In this document: piece by piece, positions 677 to 21,409 of the stretch
How positions within the stretch are numbered: position 1 is the first letter of the stretch
Layout of the letters: every line of letters begins with the position of its first letter
From: a virus
DNA: 21,409 nt
Reading direction: 5' to 3' (one strand)
Virus record (IMG/VR): IMGVR_UViG_3300005607_000063
Coordinates: 1 to 21,409 of that record
Program-made: the position numbers and the translations under genes
The notes under the pieces: model-generated
Told to the model about the DNA's origin: nothing
Databases searched by the model: none
Seen by the model: only the letters and a program-made list of their open reading frames with translations

Positions 677-871
677 GTGATCGCGGAAATCTTTATTGGC
701 CTTTGGTTCTTCACGGCTCGCAACGGGGGACAGACCTCGTTTGCCTATATCAGCCCGCCATACCGGACCCAGACCGAATGCGAAGCGGCCCGGCTTGAAT
801 TTCCCGCCGACTCAAATCCTTGCGAACAGCGCTTCGTGTGGGTGACCTACGACAGTTCGCGCCAAAAATAG
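677..871 (+). CDS. Small hypothetical protein, GTG start
   Basis: This 64-residue protein begins at GTG 677 with AGGAG at 664-668, a good 8-base spacing. The first dozen residues (MIAEIFIGLWFF) are hydrophobic and could be a short membrane or signal segment, although no Lys/Arg precedes them. Two Cys residues in the rest (TECEAAR and NPCEQR) could form a disulfide if the product is exported. No family is recognised. Its TAG stop at 869-871 is the TAG inside the left arm of an AATAGC-GCG-GCTATT inverted repeat, so gene end and repeat are fused. Confidence 0.5.
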   Translation: MIAEIFIGLWFFTARNGGQTSFAYISPPYRTQTECEAARLEFPADSNPCEQRFVWVTYDSSRQK

Positions 872-881
872 CGCGGCTATT
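867..881. repeat. AATAGC palindrome copy 1 (spacer GCG)
   Basis: AATAGC-GCG-GCTATT with perfect 6-base arms. The TAG of the left arm is the stop codon of the upstream gene. The right arm runs into TTTC. Confidence 0.85.
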
Positions 882-911
882 TTCTTGACGTGAAATAAAA
901 GCGGGGCCATC

Positions 912-1142
912 ATGGCCCAGCAGGGATTGATACCCAATATGGCCGACTGGCTCGATAGACTTCCCATTGGAGTTTATATCAGCGCGCCGGTGGCATGCCG
1001 CTGCTGCGGATTCCGCCAGTTGATGGAAATGACTAAGATACGGCGCGGCACGCTCGAAGTATTAAGCCCGCATCTGGACGCATGTCCCGGCTGCGGAGCT
1101 GGCGTGGTCGATGTCCAAATCCAAATCGAGGGCCTATGTTAA
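912..1142 (+). CDS. Small zinc-ribbon protein
   Basis: The 76-residue product carries two Cys pairs, CRCC near residue 30 and CPGC near residue 60, about 28 residues apart. This is the usual spacing of a zinc ribbon or rubredoxin-like knuckle. Such small zinc proteins often bind nucleic acid or protein, but nothing here shows the partner. The ATG at 912 has only a weak GCGGGG ahead of it. The end overlaps the next gene by 7 bases in an ATGTTAA junction, which suggests translational coupling. The true role is unknown. Confidence 0.6.
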   Translation: MAQQGLIPNMADWLDRLPIGVYISAPVACRCCGFRQLMEMTKIRRGTLEVLSPHLDACPGCGAGVVDVQIQIEGLC

Positions 1143-1336
1143 CCGTCTACTTTGAGCGCGATAGGGTAGAATTCAGCGGCAGCGCCGAGGACTTAAAGGC
1201 GCTGGCCAGCGTCATCAGCAATGCGGCGCGGCCTCAGCAAGCCAAGCCCACAACTATCCGCGCGGCGGTGGAAGGAATCAACGGCCGCCATGTGCTGTTG
1301 ATGTTTCAGCAGGGAAAGTCGGCGCCGGCGCTCTGA
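1136..1336 (+). CDS. Small hypothetical protein, coupled to upstream zinc ribbon
   Basis: The ATG at 1136 overlaps the TAA of the zinc-ribbon gene and follows GAGGG at 1128-1132. The frame is open back to 1082, but that start lacks a ribosome site and would overlap the upstream gene further. The 66-residue product starts with a beta-like MLTVYFERDRVEFSG, then a helix (SAEDLKALASVISNA), then another strand (HVLLMFQQG). No family is recognised. The following 90 bases to the next start hold no gene. Confidence 0.45.
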   Translation: MLTVYFERDRVEFSGSAEDLKALASVISNAARPQQAKPTTIRAAVEGINGRHVLLMFQQGKSAPAL

Positions 1337-1426
1337 AAGCGATTTCTGGACATAACCCCGCGGCGCCTGATAGTAGATGATTCCGAGGCCGTATTGCCCG
1401 CGAAATAAAGCAGGGAGACATCTATC

Positions 1427-2464
1427 ATGCCCGGATCAGCAGAAAAGGCGCTGAAAAAGCTTTATGAGGAAGAAGTGTCCGCAACCCCGGTGAAACCGGA
1501 TTTTGTCGGCGCGGATATCGCCAACGAACCGGAACCCGATTCCAGGAAGTCTTTAATCCTCCGCGACTTCGGAACGCCCGAAGTGGCGATCGGACATTTG
1601 GTCAGCGAGGTCGGATTTCGCGACCTGCCCAAAAATCTGACCTACGATGATTTTTCCCTGCTGCTCCAAGGAGTGGGAAAACTCAAGCAGGCTATGGTCT
1701 GGATGGCCGGCGACCTGTTGCTGGCGTGTTCCGACCGGATCGGCGAAGCCTATTCGCAGATTGCCGACCTGTGCGGCTACGACGACCAGATGATGCAGGT
1801 GGCCGAAAGTCTGGCGCGGTCCTATCCCTACGAGTATCGCCATCCCAAGTTGGAATGGACTTTCCACCAGGTGGTAAAGGCGCTGGCGCCCGGGTGCCGC
1901 GAGCACTTGAGCCGGCCTCTGCCGGATTGTCCTAAATGCGCGCCCGGACTGGCGGAGCGCGAGGACTGGCTGATTCAATGCGAGGAACACGGTTGGAGCC
2001 GCGAGGATCTGCGCGAGCGGCTGCGCAAAGCCCAGGGACGGGAAAAGCGAGGACCGGGAAGGCCGCGCAATCCCGATTCCAAAACGCCGCCGCGGGCAAA
2101 AAAGATGGACGAAAAGGCCGTCGCGGCGCTGCTTAGCGATAAAGTCGAACCGAAACTGAAGGCCGCCATCAAGCTGGGAAGGACATTTCTGGAGCGGGCG
2201 CAGACCATGCAAGAAAATCTGACATTGAATGGTCAGACCAGCCCCGCGGAAGCTCAAAGAATTGCGGCGGCGGCGGAGAAGCTGGGCGAGGAGGCGATGG
2301 AAGTGGCGCGCTCCATGCTGGAGCTGCGCAGGCATGCGCTGGTTTTGGCAAGCTATGTCCCGCCGCCCCGGCAGCAAAAAACAAAGACGGAAAAACCGCC
2401 GATACAGTCCAAACAAAAACGCCGCAAACGCCGGCTGGAAGGCGATCCTATCCCGGCTGCATAG
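1427..2464 (+). CDS. Probable DNA-binding protein of phage/plasmid type
   Basis: This 345-residue protein has a start supported by AGGGAGA at 1412-1418. Residues 75 to 160 read as a helical block: MVWMAGDLLLACSDRIGEAY, then LCGYDD, then YRHPKLEWTFHQVVKAL. Near residue 190 comes WLIQCEEHGWSREDLRERL. The order W-x-x-GD-L, Y, GY, L-W-x-x-H, WL-x-x-GWS-x-x-x-LR resembles a widespread family of phage and plasmid proteins with ParB/HTH-like helices, from memory only. Between the last two blocks is an unusual insert with CREH and CPKC, a possible zinc knuckle. The C-terminal third is a long Ala/Glu-rich helix (about 250-305) ending in a very basic tail. A nucleic-acid-binding role is inferred; the exact function is unknown. 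A strong terminator follows. Confidence 0.5.
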   Translation: MPGSAEKALKKLYEEEVSATPVKPDFVGADIANEPEPDSRKSLILRDFGTPEVAIGHLVSEVGFRDLPKNLTYDDFSLLLQGVGKLKQAMVWMAGDLLLACSDRIGEAYSQIADLCGYDDQMMQVAESLARSYPYEYRHPKLEWTFHQVVKALAPGCREHLSRPLPDCPKCAPGLAEREDWLIQCEEHGWSREDLRERLRKAQGREKRGPGRPRNPDSKTPPRAKKMDEKAVAALLSDKVEPKLKAAIKLGRTFLERAQTMQENLTLNGQTSPAEAQRIAAAAEKLGEEAMEVARSMLELRRHALVLASYVPPPRQQKTKTEKPPIQSKQKRRKRRLEGDPIPAA

Positions 2465-2471
2465 GCGCGGT

Positions 2472-2485
2472 AATAGCCTGCTATT
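2472..2485. repeat. AATAGC palindrome copy 2 (spacer CT)
   Basis: AATAGC-CT-GCTATT with perfect arms, 7 bases after the TAG stop at 2462-2464 and directly before an intrinsic terminator. Confidence 0.85.
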
Positions 2486-2488
2486 TCA

Positions 2489-2516
2489 GGGGCCGGAAGA
2501 CTCCGGCCCTTTTTCT
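2489..2516 (+). terminator. Rho-independent terminator
   Basis: GGGCCGGA (2490-2497) pairs with TCCGGCCC (2502-2509) over 8 bp with loop AGAC, followed by a T-rich run TTTTTCTTTG. It lies 25 bases after the stop of the 345-residue protein and separates the accessory block from the packaging genes. Confidence 0.85.
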
Positions 2517-2557
2517 TTGTCTAGTCATAAAAATTAGTCCGCCTTAAACTTGGACGT

Positions 2558-2794
2558 ATGAATACCGCGCCCACCATTATCCGCAAAGCCAAGCCGGGCT
2601 TGTTTCCACAAGCCTGCGACCATATCCGGAAACTGTTGGACCTGCTGGCGGCGCGCAACGCCAATCAGCTTGTGATTGATAAATGGTGCATCAAATGCGC
2701 GCGGATCGGCGCCGTTTTGCATGTAGAAAAGAACCGCTGCGACTGTGAATGCCATGCGGCGCGCCGCTTCCTCGCCGAACAGGAAGAATCATGA
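2558..2794 (+). CDS. Small Cys-rich (probable zinc) protein
   Basis: The 78-residue product has a helical N-terminus (CDHIRKLLDLLAARN) and a Cys/His cluster in the second half: CIKC near residue 44-47 and CDCECH near residue 61-66. This arrangement suggests one zinc site. The start at 2558 has a poor ribosome site (TTGGA), and it is the first gene after the terminator. Its TGA overlaps the ATG of the exported protein downstream (ATGA at 2791-2794), so the two are probably translated together. No family is recognised. Confidence 0.5.
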   Translation: MNTAPTIIRKAKPGLFPQACDHIRKLLDLLAARNANQLVIDKWCIKCARIGAVLHVEKNRCDCECHAARRFLAEQEES

Positions 2795-3348
2795 AAAAGA
2801 AAGCAATCTATATCGGCGGGGCGCTGTGCGCCGTGCTGGCGGTCGGGATCGTGTTGGCGGCCGGAACTCCAACCAGGAATCCGCCGTTTTCCACCTTGGG
2901 AAGCTTTGAGAACCGGGTCCGCATGATCATGGGAATGCCGCTGCCGACCGGAAATGAAAGCGCGGCCTATGAGGGCGCCCATTCGTTCAATACCTGCGTG
3001 AACGGCGCCGCCGGATCCAACTGCACCGCGAGTCTGGAAGGCGTCTGCGTGAGCATGCATACCGCGGCGCTGCGGCATCTGATGATCCTGGACGCGGCTT
3101 CCGTACCGGCGGACGGCGCGCTCGGCAGCTGCGCAAACACGAATCCTCCGTGCGTTGCGAAATGCATGGAGGGTTGGAGCCAGTCCACCGACCCGGCTGA
3201 AAGCTTCCGCTGCATCGATTGGGCAAACCATCCCATTCGGATAACGACGGGGCTTGTCGTTGAGTTATCGACTTCAACCAGCGGCTGCGCGACGCTGGCG
3301 AAGGACGGGAACAACGACTGGATTCAGGCTGATTTCAACGTTCCTTGA
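2791..3348 (+). CDS. Exported or membrane-anchored Cys-rich protein
   Basis: From ATG 2791 (AGGAAG seven bases upstream) the product has 185 residues. It begins MKKK followed by a hydrophobic stretch (AIYIGGALCAVLAVGIVLAAG), a textbook signal peptide or N-terminal anchor with a possible cleavage site after VLAAG. The mature part holds eight Cys (for example NTCVNG, GVCV, GSCANTNPPCVAKC, FRCID, SGCAT), consistent with disulfides outside the cytoplasm. The frame is open back to 2749, but that start ignores both the ribosome site and the ATGA junction. An exported protein directly upstream of terminase genes is unusual. It could be a lysogenic-conversion or superinfection-type moron, but no family is recognised. 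Confidence 0.6.
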   Translation: MKKKAIYIGGALCAVLAVGIVLAAGTPTRNPPFSTLGSFENRVRMIMGMPLPTGNESAAYEGAHSFNTCVNGAAGSNCTASLEGVCVSMHTAALRHLMILDAASVPADGALGSCANTNPPCVAKCMEGWSQSTDPAESFRCIDWANHPIRITTGLVVELSTSTSGCATLAKDGNNDWIQADFNVP

Positions 3349-3362
3349 AATAGCCCGCTATT
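3349..3362. repeat. AATAGC palindrome copy 3 (spacer CC)
   Basis: AATAGC-CC-GCTATT, perfect arms, starting on the base after the TGA stop at 3346-3348. Confidence 0.85.
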
Positions 3363-3386
3363 GCGCAACTGCGCATCGAAGAGCGC

Positions 3387-4028
3387 ATGGAACCTGAATG
3401 CGATATAGAACCCGAAGACGGCGCTCGGCCGTCATGCCGCGTTTGTGAAAGCGAGCATCGGCAAGAAGCGGATGTGCTCTTTTTGCGCGGCTATCGGACG
3501 GATCAGGTGCGCGATGCGCTTCAAGGCAGCGGCCTCGATATGCGCGCGCTGCGCAACCATCTGTTTCAGGGGCATGTTGTAGCGGACGCCAGTTCGCTCA
3601 GCACCGTTGTAATTCAGATGGCGCAGGAGGTGCGCGCGCATGCGGAGCGCTATGACGCTTTGGCGTCAGAGCCGGACGGCCGCTATCATCCGGATAGTCC
3701 GCGGTCGCGATTCAAGGAGCCAATGACCAAATCGATGCGTCCGGGAACAACGCGGCGCGGCCAGATGGTCCATGCCTATTTCCGCGATTACATGGCCATG
3801 CAGGCGCGGCTGGTGGAAATGCTGGGGCGTTTGAGCGGCGCGGTTTTGAAGAAAGATGACAAGAGCAACCCGGCGCAGGTCACTAACAACACGCTGAATC
3901 TGATCATGCAGGGCGACCCCGATATGGTAACGCGAATAGCGCGGACCCAGCTTGAAAAGCTGGGCTACGAAGTCAAACCGAAAATAGCCGCGCTATTGTC
4001 TGAACAGAAAAAAACGGATGCCGCTTGA
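3387..4028 (+). CDS. Putative terminase small subunit
   Basis: The 213-residue protein directly precedes, and overlaps by 11 bases, the large terminase, the usual place of the small subunit. The small subunit recognises phage DNA and recruits the motor. The N-terminal 60 residues contain CRVCES-x-x-R, then helices (EADVLFLRGYRTDQVRDAL and MRALRNHLFQGH) that look like a helix-turn-helix with a short zinc knuckle. The middle is charged and helical (GQMVHAYFRDYMAMQARLVEMLGRL), as in oligomerisation cores, and the C-terminus is basic. GAAGAG precedes the ATG. A copy of the AATAGC palindrome lies inside the 3' end. The assignment rests on position and general architecture, since these subunits diverge quickly. 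Confidence 0.55.
   Translation: MEPECDIEPEDGARPSCRVCESEHRQEADVLFLRGYRTDQVRDALQGSGLDMRALRNHLFQGHVVADASSLSTVVIQMAQEVRAHAERYDALASEPDGRYHPDSPRSRFKEPMTKSMRPGTTRRGQMVHAYFRDYMAMQARLVEMLGRLSGAVLKKDDKSNPAQVTNNTLNLIMQGDPDMVTRIARTQLEKLGYEVKPKIAALLSEQKKTDAA
3983..3997. repeat. AATAGC palindrome copy 4 (spacer CGC), inside a gene
   Basis: AATAGC-CGC-GCTATT, perfect arms, within the last codons of the putative small terminase. It is read as K-I-A-A-L-L, so its TAG is out of frame. A half-site AATAGC also occurs at 3935-3940. Confidence 0.85.
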
Positions 4029-5592: not shown

Positions 5593-5603
5593 GGACGGGA
5601 AAC

Positions 5604-5807: not shown

Positions 5808-5821
5808 AATAGCGCGCTATT
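5808..5821. repeat. AATAGC palindrome copy 5 (spacer CG, full palindrome)
   Basis: AATAGCGCGCTATT is a complete 14-base palindrome. It begins directly after the TGA stop and ends three bases before the next ATG, filling the place of a Shine-Dalgarno site. Confidence 0.9.
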
Positions 5822-5824
5822 TTG

Positions 5825-6715
5825 ATGAAGATATTGGCGATCATCGCGGGATGTTGTCTTTTACTGACCGGCAGCGCGTGGGCAACGGCCACGCCGACAT
5901 CAACGCCGACGGCGACGGCGACGCCGATTCCTACGCCGACCAATACGCCCAGCCCGACGCCGACCTCGATTCCGACGCAGTTCGGGGCGACGCCGACGAT
6001 GACGCCCGCGATTACGCCGACGGCGCTGCCGACCTGCGCGCCGGGTCTGAATTCGCCGGTTCTAAAAGGCAGCAACACGGCCGCCGGACGCCAGACAGTG
6101 CGGGTGGGACAGGCGGCGGGTGAGACGGCGGGCGACCTCCTGTTGGCTGACGTGATAATTAGCATGCCGGCGCAAAGCGTGAGCGCGGATGGCTGGACAA
6201 CGGCCTTGATCTTGAACTCGCGCGCATATGGCAGCAACACACAGGCGCTGTTCTGGAAGGTGGCGGGAAGCGCGGAACCGGATAAGTATATCTTCCGCGG
6301 CAGTCTGGGAGAGGCTTATTCCAGCGTTATCCTGTTGGATTTCACCAACGTGAACGCATCGCCGCTGGATGGCGCGGCGGCGGCATACGCGACTGACCTG
6401 GTAAATTACGGCAATCCGCCGGACGTGCTGTTCAACATCACCCAGATGACGGCGACGGCGCCGCCGCTGGTGACCAATTATTGCAATGATGCGTTGGTGG
6501 TATTCTGCGGGAGCGCTGAGCATAACTATTTCCAGCCGCCGGAGGCTCCTGCGGCGCCGCCCGGCTTCAGCTACATAACCGATGTGCATGATTACGCATC
6601 ACAGATAGCATGGAGCCAGATTCCCCCGGCGTTGGGACCGATTGGGCCATGGACGATTTATGCCGCGCATGCGGCCGACATCAAATGCGCGGCGGTGGCG
6701 CTCAGGGCGAATTGA
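5825..6715 (+). CDS. Exported protein with Thr/Pro-rich stalk
   Basis: From ATG 5825 the product has 296 residues. Residues 1-20 (MKILAIIAGCCLLLTGSAWA) form a signal peptide with an AWA-like cleavage site. IAGC at 7-10 also fits a lipobox, but the hydrophobic run before it is too short to favour that. Residues 21-70 are a Thr/Pro repeat stalk of the kind seen in secreted bacterial surface proteins. The rest looks like a beta-sandwich with two late Cys pairs. No Shine-Dalgarno is visible: a full AATAGC palindrome occupies that site. A stalked, exported protein between large terminase and portal is unexpected. It may be a moron acting on the host surface, or less likely a virion surface protein. 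No family is recognised. Confidence 0.65.
   Translation: MKILAIIAGCCLLLTGSAWATATPTSTPTATATPIPTPTNTPSPTPTSIPTQFGATPTMTPAITPTALPTCAPGLNSPVLKGSNTAAGRQTVRVGQAAGETAGDLLLADVIISMPAQSVSADGWTTALILNSRAYGSNTQALFWKVAGSAEPDKYIFRGSLGEAYSSVILLDFTNVNASPLDGAAAAYATDLVNYGNPPDVLFNITQMTATAPPLVTNYCNDALVVFCGSAEHNYFQPPEAPAAPPGFSYITDVHDYASQIAWSQIPPALGPIGPWTIYAAHAADIKCAAVALRAN
5884..6038 (+). repeat. Degenerate ACGCCGAC-type tandem repeat (Thr/Pro codons)
   Basis: Short imperfect repeats of ACGCCGAC and ACGCCGATT encode the Thr/Pro stalk of the exported protein. Such low-complexity DNA is prone to length change by slippage. Confidence 0.7.
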
Positions 6716-6716: not shown

Positions 6717-6730
6717 AATAGCGGGCTATT
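6717..6730. repeat. AATAGC palindrome copy 6 (spacer GG)
   Basis: AATAGC-GG-GCTATT, perfect arms, one base after the TGA stop at 6713-6715 and three bases before the portal ATG at 6734. Confidence 0.88.
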
Positions 6731-8855: not shown

Positions 8856-9176
8856 ATGAATTGGGAATTTGCAATGGCGGCTAAATGGCCGGCAACAATT
8901 CGATACCGCGATACCGGACAAACCGAAGAGAAGGCATTAGTCTTCGCGACAACTCTGATTCAAACCGAATCGGAGGATATCACTCCCGAAAACTTCCGGG
9001 AGATGGTTTCTCAGCTTGAAAAGCTGCGGAACGACCGAATCAACAACACCAACACGCATTCGTTTCGAGTCGGCCAGCGGCCCTATGACGTGTTGCGATA
9101 CCTGTCGGAACAACCGAGTAAAGCGGTGTTGCAAGGACCAAAAGGATTGAGCGAAATAACGCTTCGTCAGGAATAG
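8856..9176 (+). CDS. Small hypothetical protein after portal
   Basis: The 106-residue product starts at ATG 8856, five bases after the portal stop. An internal ATG at 8874 is an alternative. The sequence mixes strands (ATIRYRDTGQTEEKALVFATTL) and a helix (TPENFREMVSQLEKLRND). Base composition is slightly more AT-rich than its neighbours, which hints at a separate origin. No family is recognised. Its TAG stop lies in GAATAGCGCGG, a half-site of the AATAGC palindrome, and a full copy follows eight bases later. Confidence 0.5.
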   Translation: MNWEFAMAAKWPATIRYRDTGQTEEKALVFATTLIQTESEDITPENFREMVSQLEKLRNDRINNTNTHSFRVGQRPYDVLRYLSEQPSKAVLQGPKGLSEITLRQE

Positions 9177-9183
9177 CGCGGCC

Positions 9184-9197
9184 AATAGCCCGCTATT
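9184..9197. repeat. AATAGC palindrome copy 7 (spacer CC)
   Basis: AATAGC-CC-GCTATT, perfect arms, with an extra left half-site (AATAGCGCGG at 9172-9181) just before it that carries the upstream stop codon. GGAGGA of the next gene follows two bases later. Confidence 0.87.
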
Positions 9198-9411: not shown

Positions 9412-9610
9412 GCAAATCCTGAGCGCGCGGGACGTGATCGTATCGCTCGAACAATCCCGCGCCGACGCTCGCGAAATCCTGGCCAGCATGGATACACTGA
9501 TCCTGGCGGTGAAAAGCATGCTCCATCCGCGGCTGCCCGCCTGCGAGTTGCTTGAACAAATTCACGAACTGAATCACGAAACCGCGCGTGTCCTCGGAGC
9601 TGAGAAATAA
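9404..9610 (+). CDS. Small helical hypothetical protein
   Basis: From ATG 9404 the 68-residue product is almost all predicted helix (SARDVIVSLEQSRADAREILASMDTLILAVKSML and CELLEQIHELNHETARVL) and may form a coiled coil. A longer frame back to 9335 runs inside the DUF6496-like gene and is not favoured. It overlaps the upstream stop and the downstream ATP-grasp frame, so the three genes are probably translationally coupled. Confidence 0.5.
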   Translation: MAEQILSARDVIVSLEQSRADAREILASMDTLILAVKSMLHPRLPACELLEQIHELNHETARVLGAEK

Positions 9611-10841
9611 AACCTGTCTTGTCTGGGACTGGGGCATGTTCACCCACGTGGCGCAGGCGCTGGCCGACGAGGGCAAGTTCGGCCGCGTGGCTTACTATTG
9701 CCAGTGGGAATCGGCGTTTCCGCAGAGTAAGGACCGCGAGATCGGCGAAGGCCTGCCCGGCGTGGAGCGGGTTAAGTCCGTTGAAGAATTCATTCCCGAA
9801 GCCGATCTGATCGTATTTCCCGACTGCTACATGGGCGCGCGGGTCGAATTCCTGCGGTCACTGGGCAAGCGGGTCTGGGGGCCGGGCGCGGCGGAGTTCT
9901 TGGAAACGGACCGGCTCAAAGCCAAGGCGGCGCTGGCGGCGGCGGGACTGCCGGAAACTGATTGGACGCTTGTGGAAGGCGTGGACGCGCTGGAAAAGGA
10001 GCTGGCCAAGGTCAAGGACGCCTACGTAAAGTACTCCTTTTACCGCGCCGACATGGAATCCTATCACCATCAGAAACCGTGGGTTACCCAGATGTGGCTG
10101 GACAACCTGCGGGTGATTTTGGGACCGCGCCAGAAATACGCCGAATTCATCGTCGAATTGCCGGTCGAAGGCGTGGAGCTGGGCTTTGACGAATCGACCG
10201 TGGATGGCCAGTTTTGCTCTCAAGTCACCTGGGGCATCGAAAATAAAAGCAGCGGATATCTGGGGCAGGTGGTGGACTATGAGAATCTGCCGGAGCCGCT
10301 CCTGATGGTGAATGAGAAGCTGGCGCCGCTGCTCAAGCAGTACGAGGCGCGGACGTTCTTTTCGACCGAGATTAGGTTTGGCAAAGAAGGCGCGCCCTAC
10401 CTGATTGACCCCTGTGTGCGTTGCGGCAATCCGCCCTCGCAGGTGTATCTGCGGTTATACGACAACTGGTCGGAGCATATTTGGTACGGCGCGGCAGGGG
10501 AATTGGTGGACTTGAATCCGGTGGCGCGGTACGGCGCGCAGATTCAGTTGCATTCCAATTGGGCGAAGGAAAAATACCTGCCGGTTGATATTCCGGCGGC
10601 GCTCAAGCCGTATGTGCTGTTGCAGCGGCCGACGATGATCGGCGGCAAGACGTATGTTACGCCGGGCGGGGCAGGGGTTGGCGCGGTAATAGCCATGGGC
10701 GATACTTTGGAACAGGTAGTGCAGGAATGCCTGAGCCGCGCCGAGGCGTTGAAGTCCATCGAATTGAGCTACGACCATGATGCCTTGGACAAGGTGCTGG
10801 ATACGATTCAGGAAGCAAAAAACTTTGGTATCCGCTGGTGA
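9588..10841 (+). CDS. ATP-grasp ligase, GARS-like
   Basis: The frame opens with GTG 9588, but the true start is unsure: the conserved-looking protein begins at KTCLVWDWG (about residue 8). An N-terminal pre-ATP-grasp domain carries WGPGAAEFLETDRLKAKAALAAAGLP. The central domain shows YVKYSF and FIVELPVEGVELGFD. The catalytic, metal-binding end has STEIRF-x-KEGAPYLIDP-x-VRCGNPP (Glu261, Asp274, Asn281). The C-terminus (VGAVIAMGDTLEQVVQECLSRAEAL) resembles the C domain of phosphoribosylamine-glycine ligase. ATP-grasp enzymes join a carboxylate to an amine via an acyl phosphate. The substrate here is unknown, and a purine-synthesis role is unlikely since no other pur gene is present. It lies between portal and scaffold. 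Confidence 0.8.
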   Translation: MSSELRNKTCLVWDWGMFTHVAQALADEGKFGRVAYYCQWESAFPQSKDREIGEGLPGVERVKSVEEFIPEADLIVFPDCYMGARVEFLRSLGKRVWGPGAAEFLETDRLKAKAALAAAGLPETDWTLVEGVDALEKELAKVKDAYVKYSFYRADMESYHHQKPWVTQMWLDNLRVILGPRQKYAEFIVELPVEGVELGFDESTVDGQFCSQVTWGIENKSSGYLGQVVDYENLPEPLLMVNEKLAPLLKQYEARTFFSTEIRFGKEGAPYLIDPCVRCGNPPSQVYLRLYDNWSEHIWYGAAGELVDLNPVARYGAQIQLHSNWAKEKYLPVDIPAALKPYVLLQRPTMIGGKTYVTPGGAGVGAVIAMGDTLEQVVQECLSRAEALKSIELSYDHDALDKVLDTIQEAKNFGIRW

Positions 10842-10843: not shown

Positions 10844-10857
10844 TATAGCGGGCTATT
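10844..10857. repeat. AATAGC palindrome copy 8 (spacer GG, one mismatch)
   Basis: TATAGC-GG-GCTATT: the outermost left base differs. It starts three bases after the first base of the TGA stop region (stop 10839-10841) and is followed by TTTTC. Confidence 0.75.
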
Positions 10858-12275: not shown

Positions 12276-12300
12276 CGTACAAATTCCTGATCCTGAGAAT
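12272..12300 (+). promoter_or_regulatory. Candidate sigma70-type promoter for the capsid gene
   Basis: TTGACG (12272-12277, 5 of 6 to consensus), a 17-base spacer and GAGAAT (12295-12300, 4 of 6). The -35 box overlaps the TGA stop of the zinc-ribbon gene. Predicted start is near 12307, giving a leader of about 210 nt. The host sigma factor is unknown, so this is a prediction only. Confidence 0.4.
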
Positions 12301-12313
12301 TGACTCAAGGCGA

Positions 12314-12333
12314 TGACGGCCTTTAACGGTCAG
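12314..12333 (+). promoter_or_regulatory. Dyad element A (TGACGGC...CGGTCAG)
   Basis: TGACGGC and CGGTCAG flank 6 bases. TGAC pairs with GTCA. It shares both ends with a second element at 12477-12498. Possible protein-binding or RNA element near the predicted transcript start. Confidence 0.4.
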
Positions 12334-12460
12334 CCCCGGTAGAAATCGGGGTGCGCAGCGGAAAGGGCGATACACTTTCCGGGCGGCAGCGCGCCACATC
12401 CTCGCTGGGCCACTTTGGCCATCGCGCTTAAGCCTGAGCGGCGGCGACTGAAGGTCTCGG

Positions 12461-12507
12461 GTAACTGACGAAATTCTGACGGCAATTTTGCCGGTCAGGA
12501 CAGTTAC
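12461..12507 (+). promoter_or_regulatory. Two-level stem-loop before the capsid ribosome site
   Basis: GTAACTG (12461-12467) pairs with CAGTTAC (12501-12507). Inside, CTGACGGCAA (12476-12485) pairs with TTGCC plus GTCAG (12488-12498) with one bulged G. The stem ends one base before GAGG (12508-12511), the likely ribosome site for the GTG at 12519, so folding could affect access to it. The inner part is dyad element B, related to element A. Confidence 0.55.
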
Positions 12508-12518
12508 GAGGCTTTCAA

Positions 12519-13688
12519 GTGGCTGACACGATCTACGGGCTAGGAAATCCGTTAGCGGCGACGATACTGAGCGAAGAACTCACGTATCAGTCGATTTACG
12601 GAACCCCCATTTCAAAATTTATCGGCGAGGACATGGATTCGGGCATCCGGATCATGGATGACCTGACCCGGCGTCCCGGCGATACGATCCAATACGTGCT
12701 GCGCAAGAAGCTCCTCGGAGCCGGCGTGCTGGGCTTCGACCGGCTCAAAGGCAAGGAAGAGCGGCGCCAGGATCTTTCGGACAGCTTCTCAATCAATGCG
12801 ATTGCGCACGCGGTTAACATCGTGGGCGAAATGTCGCAACAGCGGGTGCCGTGGCCCTTGCGGCGCGACGCATATGACCAGTTGGCGGGCTGGATCAAAG
12901 AACGCATGGCGATTTGGTGCGGCAACCAGCTCGGCGGCAACGTCAACGCTGGCCTGGGCGCGACCGACCAGGATGGCAATGTCATCGGGATTGTGGCCGG
13001 GGACTTCCGCTACTGCGGAATGAACGCGCCGATAGCGCCGAACAATTTCGTGTTTCCCAACAGCACGATTACCGCGGAATCCCAATTGACTGGCCCCGGC
13101 GCCAGCGGCGTCAATCTCTTCAACCTCGCGATGATCAACCGGGCGGTGACCAAAGCGAAGACGATCACCTTTCCAATCCGACCGATAATGGTCGGTGAAG
13201 AGCCTTATTGGGTCTGCATTGCATATCCCTATCAGATCAACGATCTGAAGAATCAGACCGGCGAGGGCACTTGGGAGTCAATTCAGTTGGCGCGGATTCA
13301 GGGCGGCAACGCAGTATCTGAGAACCCGCTGATGACGGGCGCGGTGGGGATGTACAACCGGACGATCCTGCACGACGACATCCACGTACCTTACGGCGAT
13401 ACCACCCAGAATACGATGGGAACGGCGCTGGGCGCGGCGGCGAACGGAACGACTTCAGTTGCCCGGGCGATCTTTTTCGGCGCGCAGGCGGGCGTCATGG
13501 CCTTCGGACGCCGCACATCCTGGCCCGACCAGATGAAGTGGGTCGAGGAATCCGACGACTATATGCGCGAACTGGGCGTGGCGCTGGAATTGGTGGCGGG
13601 ATTGAAGAAGTCCGTGTTCACCGATACCACCGGCACCGCGTTCGATTTCGGCACCCAGACTTTGAGCACCTGGGCGCAGACGCCATAA
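12519..13688 (+). CDS. Major capsid protein, N4-gp56 family
   Basis: The 389-residue product starts at GTG 12519 behind GAGG. It shows the expected order for the N4-gp56 capsid family: an N-terminal helix with disordered basic DLTRRPGDTIQYVLRKKLLGAGVLGFDRLKGKEERRQDLSDSFSINAIAHAVNIVGEMSQQRVPWPLRRDAYDQL (residues 47-125), then WIKERM and the receptor fold. Internal Gly/Asn-rich loops and the strand-rich PYWVCIAYPYQINDLKN follow. It ends with DYMRELGVALELVAGLKKSVF. The product should assemble the icosahedral shell around the scaffold and is the best-expressed virion protein. It has its own candidate promoter and leader; its TAA overlaps an AATAGC palindrome. Confidence 0.88.
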   Translation: MADTIYGLGNPLAATILSEELTYQSIYGTPISKFIGEDMDSGIRIMDDLTRRPGDTIQYVLRKKLLGAGVLGFDRLKGKEERRQDLSDSFSINAIAHAVNIVGEMSQQRVPWPLRRDAYDQLAGWIKERMAIWCGNQLGGNVNAGLGATDQDGNVIGIVAGDFRYCGMNAPIAPNNFVFPNSTITAESQLTGPGASGVNLFNLAMINRAVTKAKTITFPIRPIMVGEEPYWVCIAYPYQINDLKNQTGEGTWESIQLARIQGGNAVSENPLMTGAVGMYNRTILHDDIHVPYGDTTQNTMGTALGAAANGTTSVARAIFFGAQAGVMAFGRRTSWPDQMKWVEESDDYMRELGVALELVAGLKKSVFTDTTGTAFDFGTQTLSTWAQTP

Positions 13689-13701
13689 ATAGCGGGCTAT
13701 T
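13688..13701. repeat. AATAGC palindrome copy 9 (spacer GG)
   Basis: AATAGC-GG-GCTATT, perfect arms. Its first A is the last base of the capsid gene's TAA stop. Confidence 0.88.
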
Positions 13702-15422: not shown

Positions 15423-15641
15423 ATGCCCTACCAGAAAATGACGGTCGGACCCTCGATATTGCGCCAGCCGTCCCAGGGAGATGAAGGGAAGGCAGAGTTG
15501 GCTATCCGCAGGCGCGAAGAAATGCGTCAGGCAGTGGTGGACGCGGCGCGCGACCATGCCGAGGGCAAGATTTCCACAGAGCAGCATGACGCCGTGCTGC
15601 ATCGCGCGCACTACCGGCTGAACTGCGACGACATCCTGTAA
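15423..15641 (+). CDS. Small protein, paralogue 2
   Basis: The 72-residue product has the core QAVVDAARDHAEGKISTEQHDAVLHRAHYRLN, matching the preceding gene. It starts one base after that gene's stop with a purine-rich ribosome site. The pair probably arose by tandem duplication and then diverged strongly. The N-terminal 30 residues are not shared. Function is unknown. Confidence 0.55.
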   Translation: MPYQKMTVGPSILRQPSQGDEGKAELAIRRREEMRQAVVDAARDHAEGKISTEQHDAVLHRAHYRLNCDDIL

Positions 15642-15653
15642 GGAATCGGGCCG

Positions 15654-16304
15654 ATGGCTGAAGCAGGCAGCACATGGCTGGATTTGCAGCAGGCTGTCCT
15701 CGACGAGATGGACCAGCGGACCGACATCGCCGACGCTGTGGTGCGCAAGCTCACCGAGGCGATCGAATTCTATCAGGATAAGATTTTCCTCGCGGACGAA
15801 GCAGAGCTTCAATGGGCATCCTGCACGACCGGAGTGCAGACGGTAAGCCTGCCGCCGAACTTCGAGAATCTGGATCGGCTTTTCGTGAACATCGACGGCG
15901 TATGGTATCCGATGGAGCAAAAAGACCAGGACTTCATCGAAACCTACAACGCGCAGGTGCCGCCCGTGCTTGGACCGCCGCTTTATTTCGCCATTTATCA
16001 GCAGGACCCGAATGTCGGTCCGTTGATAAATCTGGCGCCCGTGCCGGACCAGCCATATCAGCTCAAAGCCATTTACGAACAGATAATTCCTGTTCCGGCG
16101 AACGATACGACTTCAAATTTCTGGACGGTGGACGGCGCGTCGATGATTATGCATCGCGCGGTGGGATTGCTGCGAATGACGGTGGTAAGAAGCGAGGATC
16201 TGGGACAGGCGGATTTTTTGTTAGCTCAGCGCGAATACTGGCGCCTCAAGCGGCGTGTGGACACCATACAGGCCAGCCGCAAAGTCAAAGCGAGGTACTT
16301 ATGA
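15654..16304 (+). CDS. Head-tail connector/adaptor protein
   Basis: This 216-residue protein begins with helices (WLDLQQAVLDEMDQRTDIADAVVRKLTEAIEFYQDKIF), continues with a strand-rich middle (GVQTVSLPPNFENLDRLFVNIDGVWYPMEQKDQDFIETYN) and ends in a helix (LLAQREYWRLKRRVDTIQAS). The architecture fits phage adaptors of the SU10 or P22 gp4 type, which bind below the portal. Length and position between capsid block and ejection proteins agree. Its TGA overlaps the next ATG. Confidence 0.65.
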   Translation: MAEAGSTWLDLQQAVLDEMDQRTDIADAVVRKLTEAIEFYQDKIFLADEAELQWASCTTGVQTVSLPPNFENLDRLFVNIDGVWYPMEQKDQDFIETYNAQVPPVLGPPLYFAIYQQDPNVGPLINLAPVPDQPYQLKAIYEQIIPVPANDTTSNFWTVDGASMIMHRAVGLLRMTVVRSEDLGQADFLLAQREYWRLKRRVDTIQASRKVKARYL

Positions 16305-16777
16305 GCGGACTTAACGGCGCGGCAAATAGCGCGGCTATTCCGCATTTCGAGCTGCGCCAGATTCCAGCAGACAAGGATTCTATTGACCGCTGGTGGCCGG
16401 AGATTTTGGTCGAGATAGAGGGCATCATCGCGCGGGACCCCGAGTTATGCGACTTCATACCTGAAGAAGTATACGTCGAATTGCGCCGCCGCCGCGCCTT
16501 TTTGCACGTGGGCTTTCTGGATGGGGAATATGCGGGCTTCGGCATCTTAAAGGTGGAAAGGCGGCCATATTCGGGCGAGCCGTACCTGTTGTCATGGATC
16601 GGCGGCGGACTGAAAACCGAGGCGGTCAATCTCTACTTCGCGGAACTGGAAAACATCGCGCGCAAGGCGGGTTTGAAAACGATTCGCCACGAATCGACCC
16701 GGATGGGCTGGCTGCGCCGACTGCCCGGCGAGGGTTGGCGCACGGTTGCGATCGTACAGGAGAAGCGTCTTGGGTAA
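16301..16777 (+). CDS. GNAT-like protein (T7 gp13 type)
   Basis: From ATG 16301 (GAGG five bases upstream, ATGA overlap with the adaptor stop) the product has 158 residues. It reads as an acetyltransferase fold: FLHVGFLDGEYAGFGILKVERRPYSGEPYLLSWIGGG, then a helix TEAVNLYFAELENIARKAGLKTIRHEST, then a last strand. The acetyl-CoA motif (R/Q-x-x-G-x-G/A) is not clearly present, so it may be a non-catalytic relative, like T7 gp13 family proteins in virion assembly. The frame is open far upstream (15812), but only 16301 fits. An AATAGC palindrome lies inside codons 9-13. Confidence 0.6.
   Translation: MSGLNGAANSAAIPHFELRQIPADKDSIDRWWPEILVEIEGIIARDPELCDFIPEEVYVELRRRRAFLHVGFLDGEYAGFGILKVERRPYSGEPYLLSWIGGGLKTEAVNLYFAELENIARKAGLKTIRHESTRMGWLRRLPGEGWRTVAIVQEKRLG
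16325..16339. repeat. AATAGC palindrome copy 10 (spacer GCG), inside a gene
   Basis: AATAGC-GCG-GCTATT, perfect arms, near the 5' end of the GNAT-like gene, read as A-N-S-A-A-I so that its TAG is out of frame. Confidence 0.85.
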
Positions 16778-17612
16778 GGGATCAGGCGGCGGAACGCAAA
16801 GTGTCAGAACGACCTATACGCCGCCGCCATATCTGATACCGACGATCGCGTCGTATTTATCGGCAGTCAACAAGCTGGCTGGCGAGCCGTATCCGTTTCC
16901 GAATTACGAGGTGGCGCCGTTCACGTCGCTGGAAAATCAGGGACTGGCGCAGGCGGGACAGGCGGCGCGACAGGAAGCGGGACTGAATACCAATGCGATC
17001 AATGAGGCGAATGCGACGCTTCAAGGCAAATACCTGATACCGCCGCAACAGGTGCAGGATGCGATCAATCGGCAGACCATGCAGGAATACAGCCAGTCCG
17101 CGGCGCCATCGGAAATGTCGCAAGCGGCGCTGGCAGGCGCGTTTGGCGGCTCAGCGGACGCGGAACAGCGGGCGCTGAATCAGTTCAATTTGGCGACCGC
17201 GCTGGCGGATCCGGCCTATCAGCTTTACGAACAGGAACGGCAGAACCAGATCGGGACAGCGGCCGATGCGGCAAAAATCAGTCTCGGCGCCACCATTCCT
17301 TCGCAGGAGCTATTGCAAGCGGGGGGGATGCAGCAGGCGCAGAACCAGTCTCAACTCGATGCGCTCTATCAGAATCTTTACAATCAGGCTCAATTTCCAT
17401 TCGAGCAGGCGAACCTCTTAGGAACCGCGATTGGAACGGCGGGTGGGAATGCCGGTATTGTGACTCAGAACGCGCCGAATATGAGTCCATGGAATAACGC
17501 GGCCCCATATCTGGGGGCGGCGGGTGTGGGACTCGGGGCGCTGGGATTAGCGACCGGAAGCGGGCTGTTAACTGGGATTGGAAGCGTGCTGCCGTTGCTT
17601 GGACTGATTTAA
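16770..17612 (+). CDS. Probable internal virion / DNA-ejection protein, TTG start
   Basis: The TTG at 16770 is chosen because AGGAG (16758-16762) lies seven bases upstream; it overlaps the GNAT stop by 8 bases. The frame runs back to 16746, but without a better site. The 280-residue product is Gln/Ala/Asn-rich (for example LENQGLAQAGQAARQEAG, QQAQNQSQLDALYQNLYNQAQ) and mainly helical. Its last 35 residues are a Gly/Leu hydrophobic stretch (PYLGAAGVGLGALGLATG and GIGSVLPLLGLI) that could span a membrane. This fits proteins released into the host envelope during short-tailed phage infection. No named family is recognised. Confidence 0.5.
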   Translation: MGKGSGGGTQSVRTTYTPPPYLIPTIASYLSAVNKLAGEPYPFPNYEVAPFTSLENQGLAQAGQAARQEAGLNTNAINEANATLQGKYLIPPQQVQDAINRQTMQEYSQSAAPSEMSQAALAGAFGGSADAEQRALNQFNLATALADPAYQLYEQERQNQIGTAADAAKISLGATIPSQELLQAGGMQQAQNQSQLDALYQNLYNQAQFPFEQANLLGTAIGTAGGNAGIVTQNAPNMSPWNNAAPYLGAAGVGLGALGLATGSGLLTGIGSVLPLLGLI

Positions 17613-17618
17613 GGACAT

Positions 17619-18053
17619 ATGGACCCGACCCAAATTTTATCGCTGTTGCCGTTTCTGAAAAGCCTTGTGGGCGGCTCTGGTGGGAGCGTAGGAGCCGGAG
17701 CCGATCCAACCGCGCAAGCTTACATGGGCGGTCTCAGCGCGATGCCGCAATTGCAGCAACTTAGCGGCACGGCGCAGCCGGTGGCCCAGGCTATGAGCGC
17801 AATGCCATCACAAAATCAGGGGCAACAATTGGCGGATTATGCGTTGCTGATGAAAGCTATCGGACAGGTGGACCCGAACTCCGAAGAGCAACCGCCGCGT
17901 TTGCCGCCGTTCAGATTTGGCGCGCCGGCGCCGGCGCCGTTGCAATTCGGAAAAACCGGGTTCCATCCGTCGGTCGGCGCTTATTTGGCATCGCCGGCGG
18001 GGCAGCAAATCCTAAGGATGCTCCAAAGCGAGATGATGGGAATAGCGGGCTAA
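17619..18053 (+). CDS. Small hypothetical protein of the ejection block
   Basis: A 144-residue protein with AAGGA before ATG 17619. It begins PTQILSLLPFLKSLVGGSGG, is Gln/Pro/Met-rich in the middle (AMPQLQQLSGTAQPVAQAMSAMPSQNQGQQ), and ends in a basic, Pro-rich part and a short helix. It may be a minor virion protein. The 3' end contains a degenerate copy of the AATAGC palindrome, and its TAA is inside that copy. Confidence 0.45.
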   Translation: MDPTQILSLLPFLKSLVGGSGGSVGAGADPTAQAYMGGLSAMPQLQQLSGTAQPVAQAMSAMPSQNQGQQLADYALLMKAIGQVDPNSEEQPPRLPPFRFGAPAPAPLQFGKTGFHPSVGAYLASPAGQQILRMLQSEMMGIAG

Positions 18054-18054
18054 T
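18041..18054. repeat. AATAGC palindrome copy 11 (spacer GG, one mismatch)
   Basis: AATAGC-GG-GCTAAT: one base differs in the right arm, where the TAA stop of the upstream gene is formed. It sits directly before the ATG at 18055, in place of a ribosome site. Confidence 0.65.
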
Positions 18055-19017
18055 ATGCCGGACTGGGGCACAAACGATAGCAGCGGAACGCTGACGCCCG
18101 ACGAGCAGGCGCAATCGAATAAGCGCGCGCTCCAGTTGGGTTTGATAGCTGCTGGCCTCGGATTGTTGCGGGCGCATCGGAACTGGGGCGAGACGCGCGG
18201 ACAGGCCATTGCGCGCAGCCTTGGCGATGCTGGCATGACTGGGCTAAACGCTTATTTGGGCAGCGAGCAGGCGGCGCAGCAGGGCGCGCTGGAACATCAG
18301 AAGATGTTGCTTCAGCAGGCTCAGACGGCGGCGGAGATGCGCCGCGCTGATGCGGAGGCGGCCCAGACCGGACTGAATCTGCGGCGCTCGCAGCCGGTCG
18401 GACGCGACCCATTCGCGCGGTTCCGCGGCACCAACGCGGAGCGGTTTTTCCCTGACCCGGAGACTTCGAGCCAGCTTTCCATCGAGGAAATTCCCAAGGT
18501 CTATACCGAAGGCGTATCCGCCTATCAGAAATCGTTGGAAGCGGAAGGGCAGGGCTACCATCAGGAGACCAAGCCCGGCACAGACGGCATGATGCACCAT
18601 CTGGTGTATGACAAGACTGGGAAGATTGTCAGTGATACACCCCTGACGGGAATTCCGGCGCCTGCGAAGACCATCACCAAGACCCGTTTGGACCCCACGA
18701 CTGGTATCCGCTGGGACGTGGACTTCGATGCCAAGACTGGTAAACCGGTTGGAGTAGGGCCGTTAAAGGCCGGGAGCGAAAGTTATACCACCGGCCTGCC
18801 TTTCATGAAAAAGCCCGTTGAGGTGCCGCCTCTGAGCCGCTTCGAGCCGCTTGGACCTGATGAATTGGACGGTGATGCGGGAAGGGCCATACCCACGCTC
18901 GATCCTGACGCGGCCAAGAGGGCGGCGGTGGGTACCGTGGCGTACCGGACTTTAAAGAACGGACAGACGGTCAAGGTCCGCAAGCAAGCGGATGGTTCGT
19001 GGTCGGCGGTGCCCTAA
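18055..19017 (+). CDS. Probable internal virion protein
   Basis: A 320-residue protein. Residues 22-38 (NKRALQLGLIAAGLGLLRA) form a hydrophobic helix. Residues 70-115 (EQAAQQGALEHQKMLLQQAQTAAEMRRADAEAAQ) form a coiled coil. The C-terminal half carries small beta repeats such as HHLVYDKTGKIVSDTPLTG and RWDVDFDAKTGKPVGVG, and a final SH3-like end (VAYRTLKNGQTVKVRKQADGSWSAVP). It lies between two other putative ejection proteins, with no visible Shine-Dalgarno. No family is recognised, so the role is inferred from context. Confidence 0.45.
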   Translation: MPDWGTNDSSGTLTPDEQAQSNKRALQLGLIAAGLGLLRAHRNWGETRGQAIARSLGDAGMTGLNAYLGSEQAAQQGALEHQKMLLQQAQTAAEMRRADAEAAQTGLNLRRSQPVGRDPFARFRGTNAERFFPDPETSSQLSIEEIPKVYTEGVSAYQKSLEAEGQGYHQETKPGTDGMMHHLVYDKTGKIVSDTPLTGIPAPAKTITKTRLDPTTGIRWDVDFDAKTGKPVGVGPLKAGSESYTTGLPFMKKPVEVPPLSRFEPLGPDELDGDAGRAIPTLDPDAAKRAAVGTVAYRTLKNGQTVKVRKQADGSWSAVP

Positions 19018-21409
19018 ATGCCCGATCAGGACGATAGCTGGCAGGCTCTGCTGCCGCATCTTGAAGCCCAATATGGCTTGCCTGAAGGACTGCTGAGCGC
19101 GGTTATAGCCAAGGAGAGCAGCGGCAAGGCTGACGCCAAGGGCAAGGCGGGAGAGCGCGGCCTGATGCAAATCATGCCGGGCACCGCCAAGCATTATGGG
19201 GTGGATAACCCTGACGCCTTGGCCGATCCCAAGACCAACGTAAGCACTGGCGCGCGCATTCTTGGGGACCTGATGAAGGCCTACAATGGCGACATACATA
19301 AGGTCCTGCGCGCCTATAATGGCGGCCCGAAGGCGGCGCGGACTCCAACCGCGGAGACGACCGCATACGCTGATAGTGTCCTGAAGCGACTTAAACCCGA
19401 AGACGAAACGCCGGTGCCGTTCACGCCCGGAACCGGTTTCAGCGAAGGCAAGCCGAATCCTGACGCAGTGCCGGTGATGACCGGAACCGGATTCAGCAGC
19501 GGCACGATGCCGCCGACCGACGCGACTGGGCCGGTGCTCGAGATACCGCCCATCAGACGTCCATCAGGTGACACGGGGCCGGTGCTGGAAATTCCATCCA
19601 ACGTGGACAATCTGGCCATTGCCCCGGCGATCCGAGCTGGCAACAAGATTATTCCCGGCGCCAAGGGCGAGACGCACAAAGATATCATCGACCGGACGCC
19701 GGATTTGCCCGATAAAGTTGAGCACGGCTTTATCGATAATAGCGGGCTATTCCGCACCCGCCGGGAAATGCGCAACATCATCAACTCGCAGGGTGGTAAC
19801 CTGGGTCCGGGTCAACCCGATTCGCGCGACCTTAAGCCCAAGCCGGGTATTGCCCAGCAAATCGTCGGAGCATTGTCGCCGGCGGAAGCCTTCGCCGCCG
19901 AATTGCCGAAGACCTATTCCGAAGACGATTTCGCCGCCGAACCGCATCCCAAGGGCGGGCGCATTTCGCCGGGCGCTCCGGTTTTCCAAAAACCCATCCC
20001 GCGCGCCGCGGAAATTGCTGAAGAATATGTGATAGCTCCCGGCCTCATGGGCTTGGGCGCTGTCGGCGGCGGCGCGGCAGGCACAGCGGTGGCGCCGGGA
20101 CCTGGAACAGCGGCCGGCACAGTGGCTGGCGCGGCGGCTGGATCGGCGGCGGCGGACGTTTTAAATGCCGAGATAAACAAGCGGTTTTTTGGCCGCGACT
20201 ATTCATTGTCGCAGCCGGGCACACTGCCGGGATTCGAGCATCCTTATGGCGGGCTGGAGCAGAGCGCGGTTGAGGCTGGGGCTTTCGAGGGCGCAGGCCA
20301 TTACGGAGTGCCTGCCTTACGCAGTGCGTTACGTGGGGAAGGTATGGCCGCGAGGGCGGCGATCGAGGCAGCCGCGACACAAGACGCCGCCAACGCGGCG
20401 CAGGCGGCTGCCGCCAAGGCGCAACTACAGGCCAAAAGACAGACGCTCAAGAATGAGGTGGTGGACCGGATCGCCGCAGACAAGGCCAAGCTCCAGAAGC
20501 AGATTCTTGAAGAGCAGGCTCCAAGGGAGGCACGGACGCGGCTGGAAGCCATGCTGGGGAAGACGCCGGATGAGGTGGCCGCGGCGCAGGCATTGCCGCC
20601 GGAGCAGACGGGACCCGCGGCGCTGCCTGGCGAGCGCGCGGTAGCACGGCGCAAGGCGGTCCAGAATGCGGTTTTTGGACCGATCAGGCGCGCGGTCAAG
20701 GCGCTGGGCGAACGCTATGATCAGGTCTTCGCGAAGTATGACAAGAAATTAATCGATGCCAGCAGCCTTCAGGACACCATCGCGGACGAGAATAACTATA
20801 TCGCCCAGCGCAATATTGTTCTGAGTCCGAAAGCCAAGGCGCTGTTGAAGTTGGCGGCCAACGAGACTTCGGATGATTCAGGCGGACTGCTTACCCGTCG
20901 GGCGCGAGCCGAGGGATACCGGGACTGGGGGGAACTTGCCGCAGACGATCCCGAATTGGCTGAACAGATATCCGAGACATTGGCGCCGCCGGGGACCACG
21001 ACCATAGGACGGCTGCGCGGGCTTCGCAGTCAGGCGGCGGCGTTGATGTCCGCAGGCCAGAGCGCCAACGATCAGGCGCTGGGATACCACATGGTGTCCA
21101 AGATCGACGACATCCTGGGGCAGTCAGGCGTTCCGAAGGCGGCCGAACTCAACGCGCAGTACGCATTTCACAAGCATGTGTTCAATCGCGCCGTAACCCG
21201 CGATGTCGCGACCGAGATAGAGCCGGCCAACCTCGGGAAGGTCCTGTGGGAAGAGCCGCAGCGGGCGCTGCTTCTGTGGGATGGGGCCACGCCGGAAGAG
21301 AAACAGGTGCTGCGGGAAAATTTCGCGGACTACGTGCTGAGCAATGGATTCGACCCGCACAAGTTGGGGCAGAAAGTTAACCGCGACGTGCTCAGGCGCA
21401 TTTTCGGCG
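19018..21409 (+). CDS. Lytic transglycosylase-headed ejection protein (3' truncated)
   Basis: The frame starts at ATG 19018, next to the upstream TAA, and stays open to the window end, giving at least 797 residues. Residues 10-104 form an SLT-type lytic transglycosylase domain: VIAKESSGKADAKG with catalytic Glu33, GLMQIMPGTAKHYGV at 48-62, and VLRAYNGGP at 96-104. Such domains cut peptidoglycan so the phage DNA can pass. A linker follows with two near-repeats (TGPVLEIP twice, TGTGFS-type twice). Then comes a Gly/Ala hydrophobic segment at about 335-380 that could enter a membrane, a long coiled coil at about 453-513, and a helical region to the end. Analogues are T7 gp16 and other internal virion proteins. 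An AATAGC palindrome lies inside it. Confidence 0.8.
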   Translation, partial: MPDQDDSWQALLPHLEAQYGLPEGLLSAVIAKESSGKADAKGKAGERGLMQIMPGTAKHYGVDNPDALADPKTNVSTGARILGDLMKAYNGDIHKVLRAYNGGPKAARTPTAETTAYADSVLKRLKPEDETPVPFTPGTGFSEGKPNPDAVPVMTGTGFSSGTMPPTDATGPVLEIPPIRRPSGDTGPVLEIPSNVDNLAIAPAIRAGNKIIPGAKGETHKDIIDRTPDLPDKVEHGFIDNSGLFRTRREMRNIINSQGGNLGPGQPDSRDLKPKPGIAQQIVGALSPAEAFAAELPKTYSEDDFAAEPHPKGGRISPGAPVFQKPIPRAAEIAEEYVIAPGLMGLGAVGGGAAGTAVAPGPGTAAGTVAGAAAGSAAADVLNAEINKRFFGRDYSLSQPGTLPGFEHPYGGLEQSAVEAGAFEGAGHYGVPALRSALRGEGMAARAAIEAAATQDAANAAQAAAAKAQLQAKRQTLKNEVVDRIAADKAKLQKQILEEQAPREARTRLEAMLGKTPDEVAAAQALPPEQTGPAALPGERAVARRKAVQNAVFGPIRRAVKALGERYDQVFAKYDKKLIDASSLQDTIADENNYIAQRNIVLSPKAKALLKLAANETSDDSGGLLTRRARAEGYRDWGELAADDPELAEQISETLAPPGTTTIGRLRGLRSQAAALMSAGQSANDQALGYHMVSKIDDILGQSGVPKAAELNAQYAFHKHVFNRAVTRDVATEIEPANLGKVLWEEPQRALLLWDGATPEEKQVLRENFADYVLSNGFDPHKLGQKVNRDVLRRIFG
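19738..19751. repeat. AATAGC palindrome copy 12 (spacer GG), inside a gene
   Basis: AATAGC-GG-GCTATT, perfect arms, read as N-S-G-L-F inside the transglycosylase protein, with its TAG out of frame. Confidence 0.85.

Follow-up and report, generated by a model that had tools for sequence, protein, structure and literature searches.

The stretch of DNA analysed here, hereafter the window, is a 21,409-base viral fragment (IMG/VR record IMGVR_UViG_3300005607_000063) that comprises the entire record, for which no completeness is given. It contains twelve dispersed copies of the palindrome AATAGC-N2/3-GCTATT. All clear genes in the window are on the plus strand and form the late operon (packaging, head and injection) of a podovirus with a P22-type portal. 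In this operon, the terminase large subunit gene starts at 4018, the P22-type portal gene at ATG 6734, the gene of the major head protein (the major capsid gene) at 12519 and that of the DNA ejection protein at 16746, followed by a lytic transglycosylase open reading frame (ORF) at 19018-21408. ORF 1427-2464, which lies on this strand shortly before the structural genes, encodes a 345-residue LmbU-like protein, our candidate for the binder of the palindromes.

Twelve palindromes with fixed arms and a variable centre

A motif scan of the window returned ten exact copies of the palindrome and two copies with one mismatch, TATAGC..GCTATT at 10844 and AATAGC..GCTAAT at 18041. These are the numbers given in the original prediction, which had been made from the letters alone and had placed all twelve copies correctly. 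It had also held that so many copies are far beyond chance, and indeed no exact copy appeared in 100 dinucleotide shuffles. The density is 12 copies in 21.4 kilobases (kb), or about one per 1.8 kb of this fragment of the genome.

On the plus strand, the spacers are GG in five copies, CC in two, GC in one, CT in one, GCG in two and CGC in one, and the two three-base spacers are a single sequence seen from opposite strands. The spacers listed earlier therefore stand for CT, CC, GG, GCG and CGC but not for CG, which does not occur on the plus strand; the copy at 5808 has GC instead. The description of conserved arms around a variable, nearly exclusive G/C centre was accurate, as the centre consists only of G and C in 11 of the 12 copies, and we found no compensatory changes in the arms across the copies. 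Beyond the arms, the flanks of the 12 sites have nothing in common except a weak preference for A beside the arms. With a symmetric half-site matrix, the 12 sites score at least 19.7 bits and the next best sequence scores at most 11.1 bits, which is inside the range of shuffled sequences. Because nothing lies between these two values, the window contains no degenerate or intermediate sites beyond the 12.

The palindromes are located mainly at gene junctions

The midpoints of eight of the 12 sites fall in non-coding DNA, which makes up 4.2% of the window (p = 4e-9), and ten are followed by a start codon within 80 nucleotides (nt) (p = 3e-8); these p values depend on gene calls made for this analysis, with some uncertainty in a few starts. 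A palindrome is present in eight of the 13 gene gaps of at least 17 nt. The spacing between sites, ~1.7 kb on average, is more even than random (coefficient of variation 0.42, p = 0.002) and remains so against gene starts picked at random (p = 0.002); the smallest intersite gap is 634 (p = 0.009). Sigma-70-like promoters are not in excess in the window, with seven found against 8.2 expected. The longest non-coding gap, 243 nt upstream of the major capsid gene (12276-12518), has neither a palindrome nor any other recognised element.

Several palindromes provide the stop codon of the preceding gene. The first copy, AATAGC-GCG-GCTATT at 867-881, includes the TAG stop of ORF 677-871 and lies 30 nt upstream of ATG 912, and AATAGC-GG-GCTATT at 13688-13701, which lies 37 nt upstream of ATG 13739, shares bases with the TAA stop of the major capsid gene. 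At 18041-18054, immediately upstream of ATG 18055, the mismatched base of AATAGC-GG-GCTAAT creates the TAA stop of ORF 17619-18053. Two copies lie immediately 3' of a stop, AATAGC-CC-GCTATT at 3349-3362, 24 nt upstream of ATG 3387, and AATAGC-GC-GCTATT at 5808-5821, 3 nt upstream of ATG 5825. The AATAGC-CT-GCTATT copy at 2472-2485 is 7 nt past the stop of ORF 1427-2464, and AATAGC-GG-GCTATT at 6717-6730 is 3 nt upstream of the portal ATG 6734. The mismatched TATAGC-GG-GCTATT at 10844-10857 is 20 nt upstream of ATG 10878. Upstream of ATG 9211 by 13 nt, AATAGC-CC-GCTATT at 9184-9197 is accompanied by an additional plus-strand half-site, AATAGC at 9172-9177, which lies 12 bases upstream of it and includes the TAG stop of ORF 8856-9176.

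The remaining copies are within ORFs. AATAGC-CGC-GCTATT at 3983-3997 is in the 3' end of ORF 3387-4028, 20 nt upstream of the terminase start at 4018, and employs the codons ATA and CTA; AATAGC-GCG-GCTATT at 16325-16339 is in ORF 16301-16777, 24 nt past its start; and AATAGC-GG-GCTATT at 19738-19751, in the transglycosylase ORF, employs the rare codon CTA. This codon accounts for 2.4% of the leucine codons and is used in both of the coding copies that have leucine in the right arm; therefore, its use points to selection acting on the DNA of the coding copies.

Two further ORFs have features of their own. In the protein of ORF 5822-6715, an apparent signal peptide precedes a low-complexity stretch rich in Thr and Pro, which resembles one in a protein of the distantly related contig G037 (L283 6187-6792). 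ORF 9588-10841 encodes a 417-residue protein that has no PHROG or Pfam match and is 43-45% identical to proteins of only two related contigs (L243 and L249).

The sites are probably DNA rather than RNA elements

The sites lie between a stop and the next start on a single transcribed strand, as would suit a small junction hairpin in the RNA that affects translation, mRNA stability or termination. In addition, the larger imperfect inverted repeat at 9172-9197, formed by the half-site and the full site, has an unusually stable RNA fold compared with shuffled sequences (z = -2.9). However, only three of the 12 sites form the palindromic hairpin in their best RNA fold, most z-scores of the sites are between -1.8 and +1.2, and the arm sequence is invariant. 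An Rfam search gave no match. The palindromes have no regular U tract; a distinct, strong hairpin with a T tail lies downstream of the copy at 2472 alone, as an intrinsic-terminator-like element at 2488-2511 on the plus strand, behind the candidate binder gene. We therefore regard an RNA element as very improbable.

A double-stranded DNA site is favoured by the fixed arms around a variable centre, by the rarity of the hairpin among the best RNA folds and by the use of CTA in two coding copies. This agrees with the earlier suggestion of a symmetric site for a dimeric protein. The palindromes are very probably DNA sites for some symmetric protein. A centre of either two or three bases would be harder to accommodate for a rigid dimer than for loosely linked DNA-binding domains. 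In other systems, SpdA2 binds its palindrome with or without one inserted central base (PMC4170104), and ParT, a ParB-like protein without a CTPase domain, binds its inverted repeat equally well when 10 base pairs (bp) are added between the half-sites (PMC12260392).

An LmbU-like protein as the candidate binder

The protein of ORF 1427-2464, which the original prediction had not picked out as a candidate, matches the NCBIfam model NF038070 (LmbU_fam_TF) with an E-value of 1.6e-10 and 41.2 bits. The match falls into two stretches, which between them span profile positions 6-158 of 171. An alphaproteobacterial LmbU-like protein (L369), which is ~30% identical to annotated Streptomyces LmbU proteins, aligns to it with a pairwise E-value of 1e-9, and the protein also aligns with annotated LmbU proteins. 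Judged by these alignments, it is a remote member of the LmbU family with a predicted homologous DNA-binding domain. LmbU itself is a homodimer that binds the palindrome CGCCGGCG (PMC6510168). LmbU-like genes are rare, being found in one of 190 alphaproteobacterial genomes, with one further weak match among the records of relatives searched. In the phage LmbU-like proteins (L376, L379, L380 and L381), a C-terminal stretch of ~55 residues is nearly identical and the DNA-binding parts are more divergent, as if the recognition domains had been swapped.

Given the protein sequence and the resemblance between the motif and the KorB operator, a ParB/KorB-type domain was expected ahead of the fold search. 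A single-sequence AlphaFold model of the protein was too poor for use. In a model built with six phage homologues, a ParB/Noc-type DNA-binding domain is predicted at residues 70-206 and a helical hairpin at residues 237-310. The nine best structure matches to residues 70-206 were all ParB, Spo0J or Noc DNA-binding domains, with Z values of 8.1-9.9, although such values in helical proteins can also come from a common arrangement. These matches are suggestive of a ParB/Noc-type DNA-binding domain in the protein but are not proof. Since no ParB_N CTPase domain was detected in it by Pfam, the protein, if ParB-like in action, would be of the ParT kind.

Distant relatives have other palindrome families

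Single-protein searches found no close relatives, either with the terminase large subunit, the major capsid protein and the 1427-2464 protein in viral contigs or with the last of these in genome contigs. Distant relatives were obtained by profile searches with the portal and head proteins. The head proteins of the nearest annotated phages are less than 38% identical to that of the window phage. The relatives in bacterial genomes are mostly from Hyphomicrobiales (Bradyrhizobium, Bartonella), and by this relationship an alphaproteobacterial host is plausible.

The AATAGC-N2/3-GCTATT array was absent from the ~65 distantly related contigs scanned, many of full or nearly full length, and the window far exceeded all of them in a palindrome scan. 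The GG/CC or GCG/CGC variant occurs once in each of 137 other viral contigs, without a second copy in the available stretch of any of them, and the four nearest annotated phages have no palindrome family. Absence of the motif from the rest of the genome and from all relatives had been named at the outset as counting against the array, and for the relatives this absence is what we found. Two relatives, however, have significant families of their own with fixed arms and a variable centre. G037, one of the two contigs with most genes in common with the window, contains TTTTTGCA-NNN-TGCAAAAA in three exact copies and one copy with two mismatches over 36 kb (L283 3986 and 14847; L284 8817 and 14993). 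G001 contains TTTACA-NNN-TGTAAA in four exact copies and two copies with one mismatch (GTTACA) within 4 kb (L289 2750-6670), among short ORFs outside the structural region, and this family looks like ordinary clustered operators. These different families suggest, by analogy, that palindrome specificities turn over quickly, as immunity specificities do, and the absence of the window motif in the relatives may reflect such rapid turnover rather than an artefact.

A possible operator array along the late operon

Our preferred reading, to which we assign a probability of about 0.4, is that the palindromes are an operator array read by a dimeric phage protein, most likely the LmbU-like 1427-2464 protein, that hinders transcription of the late operon. 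A dimeric protein with sequence specificity would recognise the palindromes as double-stranded DNA, and the LmbU-like protein with its predicted ParB/Noc-type domain would be the likeliest to bind them, with each subunit contacting one AATAGC half-site and with flexibly linked DNA-binding domains tolerating a spacer of 2 or 3 bp. The sites would be kept mainly at gene junctions, where the coding cost is lowest, at intervals of ~1.7 kb along the operon. While the phage is in a repressed or early state, the bound protein would then impede transcription through the structural genes, much as happens at stoperators or KorB operators. Binding of the palindromes by this particular protein is a tentative proposal that we place slightly below even odds; given binding, silencing would be its result with a chance of about one half.

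Several results weigh against this reading. The score of the protein is far below the cut-off of the LmbU family (41.2 against 125 bits). The AlphaFold model has a mean predicted local distance difference test (pLDDT) score of 58 and reaches ~70-90 only across residues 120-205, and its best Foldseek match was not significant (E 0.34). Nor did LmbU-like proteins match two ParB proteins significantly when their profiles were compared, although in the comparison with the ParB of MW202512, a distant relative, the helix-turn-helix (HTH) was nonetheless aligned to the HTH. No comparable array is present in nine other viral contigs that encode LmbU-like proteins, and the relatives with palindrome families, G037 and G001, have no LmbU match; thus, LmbU-like genes and palindrome arrays do not co-occur in general. 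Moreover, repressor sites deep in a late operon and away from promoters are unusual, nothing marks this phage as temperate, and a better candidate for the binder may be encoded in the rest of the genome.

This last point leads to a somewhat unlikely alternative, in which the same DNA operator array is read by a protein from outside the window, such as a host regulator, or a repressor or ParB-type protein encoded in the part of the genome beyond the fragment. The window is only a fragment, and distant relatives encode ParB-type proteins elsewhere: MW202512 has a ParB HTH domain (E 2e-10) and G037 has a fusion of a ParB_N domain and an N6/N4 DNA methylase (L284 11655-13235, minus strand). The palindrome families of G037 and G001 also exist without an LmbU-like gene. 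However, a plausible binder belonging to a rare family adjoins the sites, and no second such protein is known for the window phage. In G037, a neighbouring second ORF has an HTH-like stretch in common with the methylase fusion.

An array that serves genome organisation, through partition of an extrachromosomal prophage, DNA compaction or packaging, would be in line with the over-even spacing, the ParB-like fold of the candidate protein model and the lack of a link to promoters, and the authors who described the palindromes of Cluster O mycobacteriophages likewise doubt a role in transcription initiation (PMC4351075). We nevertheless consider it rather unlikely, as such an array would not require close placement upstream of starts, and none of the window ORFs that were searched, in what is a partial genome, could be recognised as a ParA-like or partition gene. 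It is unlikely, to a slightly greater degree, that an LmbU-type, CTP-independent ParB/ParT-like protein loads every 1-2 kb on the late operon and covers or slides along the DNA between the sites, either silencing the operon or organising the genome. If true, this would be KorB-like long-range silencing in a phage and would offer a testable mechanism for the Cluster O palindromes. The most doubtful proposal is that no protein binds the sites and that they serve as linkers for recombination or belong to a repeat that spreads at gene borders. They do mark module borders, and deletions have happened between the palindromic repeats of Cluster O phages (PMC4351075), but the flanks are nearly unrelated beyond the arms, the variable centre is restricted to G and C in all but one copy, and the coding copies are retained at a cost in codon use.

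Comparison with known systems

Like the stoperators of Cluster A mycobacteriophages such as L5, the palindromes are dispersed in a phage genome and mostly away from promoters, but a stoperator is a 13-bp site without symmetry, and most of them share one orientation (PMC6550527), whereas 10 of our 12 sites are perfect palindromes and have no orientation. This symmetry rules out membership of the stoperator class. Stoperators are bound by a monomeric repressor (PMC9283540). By analogy, the window sites may still work like stoperators.

With the KorB operator of plasmid RK2, TTTAGC(C/G)GCTAAA (PMC2680271), the window motif has the TAGC..GCTA core and a G/C centre in common; the outer two bases are TT in the KorB operator and AA in the window, and the KorB spacer is 1 bp. 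Sites of KorB/ParB systems may act at a distance (PMC2680271, PMC11790492), and the model of our candidate protein has a ParB-like DNA-binding domain, but it differs from these systems in its lack of a detected ParB_N domain. In its predicted domain layout, the candidate resembles ParT of plasmid SCP2, which has a ParB-like DNA-binding domain without a CTPase domain and a C-terminal dimerisation region, reads an inverted repeat and tolerates an altered half-site distance. In contrast to the window array, parS is a single 18-bp site within its own gene, and ParT has ParA as a partner (PMC12260392).

The start-associated sequences of Cluster K phages are also short repeats just upstream of the starts of some genes, but they are asymmetric 13-bp sequences at non-structural genes and are tied to the translation start (PMC3203893), whereas the window sites are symmetric, belong to structural genes and lie 0-72 nt from starts, so that they are not members of that class. 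The SPbeta element is a 15-bp repeat dispersed in a phage genome; its sites are in promoter regions and its binder, MrpR, is a tyrosine-recombinase-like repressor that was identified 24 years after the repeat, so that such repeats can prove to be repressor sites (PMC10516654). For the conserved inverted repeats of phiC31, which were also considered for comparison, the literature search gave no paper.

The closest precedent is the palindrome of Cluster O mycobacteriophages, TGTTCGG-NNN-CCGAACA in Corndog, a 17-bp sequence with 34 copies over ~70 kb that was described in 2015 without an assigned function and is thought to be a site for a dimer (PMC4351075). Both families have fixed arms, a variable centre, many copies and no orientation, and neither is linked to promoters; in Corndog, too, many sites occupy short intergenic gaps or lie close to 5' ends. 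They differ in that the Cluster O sequence is not present as the window motif, that its arms are 7 bp around a fixed 3-bp, A/T-rich centre compared with 6-bp arms around a G/C centre of 2 or 3 bp, that about one third of the Corndog sites are deep in genes, and that host and phage type are unrelated. For Cluster O, no binder has been proposed beyond three predicted DNA-binding proteins. The window phage is therefore a second, independent case of Cluster O-style dispersed palindromes, in an unrelated lineage, and, unlike in Cluster O, a specific candidate for the binding protein adjoins the sites, which lie mostly at gene junctions.

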